Below the pieces are notes generated by a model, which had not been told where the DNA came from, ran no database searches, and saw nothing but the letters and a program-made list of their open reading frames with translations. Below, in pieces: positions 42,483 to 43,637 of a stretch of DNA of 64,000 nucleotides. Positions within the stretch are counted from its first letter, which is position 1; each line of letters begins with the position of its first letter. A program made the translations under genes and the position numbers. The stretch covers positions 767,001-831,000 of the forward strand of contig NZ_CP147020.1 in the NCBI RefSeq assembly GCF_037126435.1, read 5' to 3'. The DNA is from Bernardetia sp. ABR2-2B. GTDB lineage: Bacteria > Bacteroidota > Bacteroidia > Cytophagales > Bernardetiaceae.

Positions 42483-42791
42483 TTATTTACTTTGTGTTTG
42501 AATTGCCATTTGATGAATGACTTCGAAAATATCTAGGACTAAGTCAGAAGGCAAGTCTAACTCTTCTGCTATTTTTTGGCGAGAATCTAAGATAGTTTGC
42601 CATCGATTGGGTTGAAGAGTTTCTAATTTGTGTTTGCGTTTGTGTTCTCCTATTTTTTTGACAATTTCCATTCGTTGAGCTATAATTTTGATAAGTTCAG
42701 TATCAATTTTATCAATTTCTTGACGAGACTGATTTAGACAAGTTTCAGAAGAAAATAAATCAAGACCTGGTTTTTTTTGAGAAGCATTCAT
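42483..42791 (-). CDS. Chorismate mutase (AroQ type)
   Basis: The 102-residue all-helical AroQ enzyme rearranges chorismate to prephenate. It has the CM_2 pattern CLNQSRQEIDKIDTELIKI, then AQRMEIVKKIGEHKRKH and PNRWQTILDSR with the usual active-site Arg and Lys residues, and DLVLDIFEVIHQMAIQTQ. It is the second gene of the phenylalanine operon, 38 bp after prephenate dehydratase. In enterobacteria the two activities are fused as the P-protein; here they are separate. It ends at a strong terminator. Confidence 0.9.
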   Translation of the reverse strand: MNASQKKPGLDLFSSETCLNQSRQEIDKIDTELIKIIAQRMEIVKKIGEHKRKHKLETLQPNRWQTILDSRQKIAEELDLPSDLVLDIFEVIHQMAIQTQSK

Positions 42792-43413: not shown

Positions 43414-43445
43414 AAAAAAAACCCTAACTATTTAAAGTCAGGGTT
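43414..43445 (-). terminator. Attenuator terminator of phenylalanine operon
   Basis: On the minus strand AACCCTGACT pairs with AGTTAGGGTT around a six-base loop, followed by a run of eight T. It lies between the leader peptide and the pheA start, i.e. inside the 5' leader. An AGTCAGG stretch within the leader-peptide gene (43510-43516) is complementary to CCTGACT in its 5' arm and could form an antiterminator. Confidence 0.85.
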
Positions 43446-43485
43446 TAGAATTTTTTAGATGTAGTTGGTTCTTAAATTTTGACAA

Positions 43486-43572
43486 TCAACTTTCAATCTG
43501 CTTCTTCGTCCTGACTAAAGGGCTAAAAAAGTAGAAATAATAAAAGTTGAAAGAGAAAATAGTAAGAGTCAT
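43486..43572 (-). CDS. pheL: Phe/Tyr-rich leader peptide of attenuator
   Basis: A 28-codon ORF (ATG 43572, TGA 43488-43486) lies 99 bp upstream of pheA on the same strand. Residues 5-16 read IFSFNFYYFYFF: six Phe and three Tyr in twelve residues, the tail being SPLVRTKKQIES. Its position directly ahead of an intrinsic terminator and the phenylalanine operon is what is expected for a regulatory leader peptide on which ribosomes stall when charged tRNA-Phe (or tRNA-Tyr) is scarce. Reading of the role is by analogy with enterobacterial pheL. Confidence 0.85.
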   Translation of the reverse strand: MTLTIFSFNFYYFYFFSPLVRTKKQIES

Positions 43573-43609
43573 CTGTTTTTTACAAATTTGAATGTTTTTT
43601 GTATTCAGT

Positions 43610-43637
43610 TAAATATAACTGATTACCTACACACAAT
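43610..43637 (-). promoter_or_regulatory. Promoter of phenylalanine operon
   Basis: On the minus strand TTG (43637-43635), a 17-bp spacer and TATATTTA (43617-43610, one mismatch to TAnnTTTG) give a transcription start near 43603, about 30 nt before the leader-peptide ATG. Confidence 0.6.

Follow-up and report, generated by a model that had tools for sequence, protein, structure and literature searches.

A mixed Phe/Tyr leader ORF and competing RNA hairpins upstream of pheA suggest ribosome-mediated transcription attenuation in Bernardetia

The stretch of DNA analysed here (the window; 64 kb of Bernardetia sp. ABR2-2B) carries a pheA operon preceded by a leader region, both on the minus strand. 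The first structural gene, pheA, encodes a prephenate dehydratase of 185 aa (43387–42830; PF00800, residues 4–184), and the second operon gene encodes a type II chorismate mutase of 102 aa (42791–42483; PF01817). Upstream of pheA lies a leader peptide ORF of 28 codons, MTLTIFSFNFYYFYFFSPLVRTKKQIES (43572–43486), which we recognized from its sequence and from its conservation in six species. Residues 5–16 of the peptide consist of nine Phe/Tyr residues plus Ile, Ser and Asn, and the control codons 6–16 (43557–43525) comprise six Phe and three Tyr codons. A short ORF with a run of end-product codons thus lies 5′ of the operon for the corresponding biosynthesis. Between the end of this leader ORF and the first structural gene, pheA, are 98 nt, which include an intrinsic terminator (43446–43419). 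An earlier note, made from the sequence alone, had described the ORF with its Phe/Tyr composition, a segment AGTCAGG within the ORF that is complementary to the 5′ arm of a following terminator, the terminator itself and the two genes downstream; all of these were found, AGTCAGG at 43516–43510 in codons 19–21.

The combination of a Phe/Tyr-rich ORF and a terminator occurs only once in the window. Both strands were searched for ATG-initiated ORFs of 8–45 aa with at least six Phe/Tyr in ten residues and a terminator nearby, and the pheA leader was the single occurrence. In dinucleotide shuffles of one strand, the chance level of such ORF–terminator pairs was a mean of 0.025 at the threshold of at least 6/10 Phe/Tyr; none was obtained in 40 shuffles at thresholds of at least 7/10 or at least 8/10.

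Transcription of the leader probably starts near 43630. The near-invariant sequence TATTATTG (43641–43634) is a probable −7 element with the consensus TAnnTTTG, as quoted in PMC9723704. A TTG (43664–43662) is found 20 nt upstream of TATTATTG and at the equivalent place in relatives; from the known −33/−7 promoter type of Bacteroidota, we take it as the probable −33 element. A hairpin, GTAATCAGTTATATTTAACTGAATAC (43626–43601), folds at the same place in all six species, with differing sequences, and perhaps protects the 5′ end of the mRNA. The promoter proposed in the earlier note, TTG-N17-TATATTTA, had to be discarded because TATATTTA is unconserved: it forms the loop of the 5′ hairpin and is absent from the relatives, and the conserved candidate is located about 25 nt further upstream. 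A perfect TTGACA-N17-TATAAT match on the plus strand (42658–42686), inside the chorismate mutase gene but on the strand opposite to it, is probably a chance match, given that the phylum uses another promoter type.

The terminator has the sequence AAACCCTGACT-TTAAAT-AGTTAGGGTTT-TTTTT and is kept in the six species. Sequence and folding define a 5′ arm, C (AAACCCTGACT, 43446–43436), and a 3′ arm, D (AGTTAGGGTTT, 43429–43419; AGTCAGGG in four relatives), followed by a U tract and probable termination zone (43418–43412), where transcripts would end. The AGTCAGG segment, B, copies the 3′ arm of the terminator; it is kept in 42/42 cells of the six-species comparison. It is predicted to pair at seven of seven positions with CCTGACT (43442–43436) of the 5′ arm under ribosome stalling, and its longest match compared with shuffles gave p values of 0–0.005. 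In the absence of a ribosome, folding predicts a hairpin in which segment 1a (UCAACUUUU, 43550–43542), inside the control run, pairs with segment 1′ (GAAAGUUGA, 43494–43486) at the end of the ORF. This helix is paired in 54/54 cells, with changes only between G-C and G-U or between A-U and G-U. In the same hairpin, segment 1b (CUUUUUU, 43531–43525) pairs with GAAGAAG (43507–43501; 42/42 cells). Within segment 1′, AGUUG (43491–43487) has an alternative partner, CAACU (43467–43463; 30/30 cells), which would make up the inner part of the antiterminator. The sequence AGCCCU of codons 17–18 (43524–43519) is able to pair with AGGGUU in arm D of the terminator (36/36 cells), and in the model this can hold that arm in the antiterminated state.

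To relate these pairings to ribosome position, the RNA left free by a parked ribosome was folded for each position, using a footprint that extends 14 nt from the first base of the A site, a textbook value that may not be that of Bacteroidota. The free leader has a folding z score of −3.5. When no ribosome is present, the leader is closed on itself by UCAACUUUU:GAAAGUUGA and CUUUUUU:GAAGAAG, leaving AGUCAGG in the loop region, and the terminator is formed. When the A site is at codons 6–14, seven B:C pairs (AGUCAGG:CCUGACU), enclosing AGUUG:CAACU, are formed before arm D emerges. At codons 11–12 the AGCCCU:AGGGUU pairing, which engages arm D, keeps this antiterminator the best fold even once arm D has been made. 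From codon 20 onwards, the terminator alone is predicted. The completed terminator is the stabler fold at most stall sites, so that antitermination would be kinetic, depending on the order of synthesis. A ribosome at the stop codon, with the usual footprint, falls narrowly short of AGUCAGG; the off state would therefore rely on refolding of the leader or on fast read-out. Folding and conservation together thus predict that a ribosome stalled at the control codons releases an antiterminator whose pairing precludes the terminator.

Six of the seven Bernardetia genomes (the window's own and five others) contain pheA, and the leader is present in all six. In the seventh (G004), which is rated 93% complete, neither a prephenate dehydratase nor a leader was found, possibly reflecting Phe auxotrophy or an assembly gap. 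Among the six species, the ORF is 94% and the terminator 90% identical, compared with 64% for the 5′UTR before the ORF and 43% for the spacer from the terminator to pheA. Five codons vary within codons 5–25, and all of these changes are synonymous, with no replacement, where just 17% of random substitutions would be expected to be synonymous; replacements are confined to codons 2, 4, 26 and 27. Small as these numbers are, the synonymous-only change in codons 5–25 argues for selection of the leader ORF as a coding sequence, and the ORF is presumably translated. All named helices are 100% paired in all six species, and variable pairs are only G-C/G-U or A-U/G-U. The earlier note had called for an alignment of relatives with compensatory changes. 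The ORF, the terminator, the AGTCAGG/CCTGACT pairing and the competing hairpin are indeed kept in the six species, but the B:C helix is invariant across them and therefore shows no independent covariation in Bernardetia.

The Bernardetia prephenate dehydratase, at 185 aa, lacks a C-terminal ACT-type (regulatory) region. Enzymes of relatives, about 275–310 aa long, have that C-terminal region; their ACT scores are below the Pfam cut-off (none for L157), so that ACT in these proteins denotes length and weak matches only. Judging from its length and domains, the 185-aa enzyme may be without product feedback. Loss of ACT was rejected as the reason for a gain of the leader, since relatives with the longer C-terminus also have leaders. 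Prephenate dehydrogenase TyrA (PF02153) was detected in none of the seven Bernardetia genomes, while 14/14 control genomes were positive. Phenylalanine 4-monooxygenase is present in all seven (PF00351), with TIGR01267 above its cut-off. Because Bernardetia has this phenylalanine hydroxylase but no TyrA, its Tyr is probably made from Phe, and pheA probably feeds both amino acids, which is why a mixed Phe/Tyr leader still fits this genus. In four relatives, the operon encodes a dehydratase, an aminotransferase, a prephenate dehydrogenase and a DAHP synthase-mutase (domains checked for L156). Such an operon would serve the synthesis of both Phe and Tyr, and a mixed leader suits it.

Leaders of similar design precede other operons of the genus. 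In the same genome, trpE is preceded by a leader with the motif WWW, MTNTILNITYLSTSANSAWWWHYIKDIGDKSCAF, and a terminator (L140, G000:C1 near 1127331). The ORF contains GATAAGTC, complementary to GACTTATC of the terminator GACTTATC...GATAAGTC. In the same fold test, stalling at WWW frees GATAAGTC, and the dependence on ribosome position is as for pheA. A trpE leader with three consecutive Trp codons is found in all seven Bernardetia genomes (L134–L140), with a terminator detected in at least six. The gene ilvD, itself found in two of the seven genomes, has Ile-rich leaders, MQPITYTILISVIIITALF and MNSFTNIILISIIIITVPIW (L148 and L149; G005 and G001), followed by terminators. No His leader was found before hisG in Bernardetia, nor was an aromatic leader found at either of its DAHP-synthase-family genes.

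Beyond the genus, we analysed 95 upstream regions of prephenate dehydratase genes, with Bernardetia counted once. A Phe/Tyr leader with a terminator precedes pheA at 12 of these loci, compared with about 0 in shuffles, and such leaders occur in other Cytophagales and in Flavobacteriales. The distant leaders have the Phe/Tyr codon run in common and differ in RNA sequence (for example MKRFNAYFWFYYYYFKALPGFERVAVCC and MSNNRFYFSNSFYFFFRK). Several contain a copy of the terminator arm in the ORF, about 18–33 nt before the ORF end and of differing sequence; in several others, a simple search revealed no convincing antiterminator segment. At many pheA loci of the phylum (for example L043–L072), the upstream region contains no aromatic leader, and the class is therefore not universal. 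Upstream of one pheA locus (L101, genus g66), a Flavo-1 RNA (RF01705, 78.6 bits) was detected at 457–534.

The least expected part of the analysis lies outside the window and concerns leaders in tandem. In the genus g15, probably Hymenobacter judging from its sequences and its place in the order, 27 of 30 loci (L166–L195) have two successive Phe/Tyr leader ORFs before the pheA operon; in L166 these are located at −316 and −161 relative to pheA. The first leader usually has its own terminator, and the second leader starts after it. Many of the second leaders contain an ORF segment complementary to the next terminator arm, for example GCGGGGCC:GGCCCCGC. The pairs thus appear to be tandem attenuators of a single specificity. 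A literature search on tandem attenuators returned none for Hymenobacter.

These data make it very probable that the pheA leader of Bernardetia is a classical ribosome-mediated transcription attenuator, sensing charged Phe-tRNA and, together with it, Tyr-tRNA. The earlier note had seen the same layout, a view now supported by conservation in six species, by the purely synonymous change in codons 5–25 and by the analogous distant leaders. In the proposed mechanism, transcription would start near 43630 and a ribosome would start translating the leader of 28 codons. On shortage of Phe or Tyr, the ribosome would stall in codons 6–16, break the leader hairpin and expose AGUCAGG. The exposed segment would pair with CCUGACU as this emerges, helped by AGUUG:CAACU and possibly by AGCCCU:AGGGUU. 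With the antiterminator formed, the terminator would not fold, and pheA and the mutase gene would be transcribed. With ample Phe and Tyr, the ribosome would continue through AGUCAGG as far as the stop codon, or the leader would refold on itself; the 11-bp terminator would then form, and transcription would stop after about 220 nt. Translation presumably keeps pace with transcription, such that amino-acid supply would set the level of read-through. Given an ORF rich in Phe/Tyr codons and an RNA hairpin switch, the cell probably makes more of the pheA-operon enzymes when Phe or Tyr is short.

A structured leader with a terminator would, by itself, also fit an RNA that senses a ligand or tRNA, such as a riboswitch or T-box, or an attenuator bound by a protein, with the ORF being incidental. 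We consider this very unlikely: no Rfam family reaches its gathering threshold anywhere in the window (0 matches), the low-threshold matches are at chance level and far below cut-off, codons 5–25 vary purely synonymously, and what distant pheA leaders have in common is the Phe/Tyr codon run, not the RNA sequence. The peptide is nearly invariant in the genus, down to the SPLVRTKKQ that follows the aromatic run, and this might instead point to nascent-peptide arrest, as in TnaC, in which the leader peptide would stall the ribosome in response to free Phe/Tyr or another signal. The SPLVR stretch is, however, explained by RNA pairing, since AGCCCU and AGUCAGG are located there, and leaders of other families have in common the Phe/Tyr run and no peptide motif. 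In a biosynthetic operon, moreover, arrest on an abundant product would regulate in the wrong direction, barring an inverted switch. There is accordingly only a slight chance that arrest of this kind operates at pheA.

The leader might also act without sensing Phe/Tyr at all, either by holding read-through at a constant level or by promoting pheA translation as an upstream ORF, through reinitiation. Such reinitiation has been suggested to occur at leader ORFs of bacteria, Bacteroidetes among them (PMC4833913), but the leader genes of Bacteroidetes peak at a distance of 11–14 bp in that work, whereas the present ORF is 98 nt away from pheA, with the terminator in between. The codon bias also fits the downstream pathway at both pheA and trpE, and we regard this explanation, too, as highly improbable.

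As judged across the genomes compared, attenuation, hardly described in Bacteroidota, turns out to be apparently widespread there. With less confidence than for the Bernardetia leader itself, we favour the view that mixed Phe/Tyr ribosome-mediated attenuators without Shine–Dalgarno initiation form a phylum-wide, uncatalogued class that follows the evolution of the pathway and is doubled in series in Hymenobacter. A conserved example in Bacteroidota would imply that translation and transcription are closely coupled in a phylum that mostly initiates without Shine–Dalgarno pairing. The leader further suggests a way in which synthesis of Phe and, via hydroxylation, of Tyr may remain under control in a genus without the Phe-binding ACT-type region in its prephenate dehydratase. 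Two Hymenobacter attenuators of the same specificity in series would, if confirmed, sharpen the response; these leaders are a natural test of how two stacked, like sensors affect a dose response.

The principle of ribosome-mediated attenuation is textbook knowledge, and its best-known cases are from Proteobacteria. In Bacteroidota, translation is mostly initiated without Shine–Dalgarno pairing. In 2010, leader peptide systems were described as known only in Proteobacteria and Actinobacteria, apart from the atypical ermC leader and the Firmicutes case reported in the same paper (PMC2965389). Leader-like short ORFs are mentioned in Bacteroides thetaiotaomicron (PMC7366714). The statement in the earlier note that no well-studied example for Phe was known in the phylum needs a caveat, as a transcriptome study of Flavobacterium psychrophilum describes strong indications of leader-peptide attenuation ahead of operons for amino-acid biosynthesis, together with a structured pheA 5′ element that is conserved in Flavobacteriaceae and has no Rfam match (PMC9723704). 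The main text of that study gives neither a leader sequence nor a mechanism for pheA, and F. psychrophilum belongs to the same phylum as Bernardetia but to another order, Bernardetia being a member of the Cytophagales. The Bacteroid-trp RNA motif (RF01692, PMC2864571), a proposed cis-regulatory RNA of Bacteroidetes, is linked to trp genes by name; it has no match in the window nor in the Bernardetia trpE leaders L134–L140.

The leader resembles pheL/pheA of enterobacteria (Phe_leader, RF01859) in its short Phe-rich ORF, its mutually exclusive antiterminator and terminator, and the presence of pheA downstream. It is no member of that family, scoring 14.8 bits with the covariance model against a gathering cut-off of 55. 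In contrast to the enterobacterial system, the Bernardetia leader has a mixed Phe/Tyr run, its antiterminator segment lies within the ORF, some 30 nt ahead of the ORF end, its start has no Shine–Dalgarno-like signal, and its pheA enzyme is without an ACT-type region.

The two leader ORFs of the Salmonella mgtCBR operon sense different signals. With two short leader ORFs on one operon, these tandem attenuators provide a precedent for the tandem arrangement in Hymenobacter (PMC3641672), in which, unlike in mgtCBR, both leaders are Phe/Tyr-rich.
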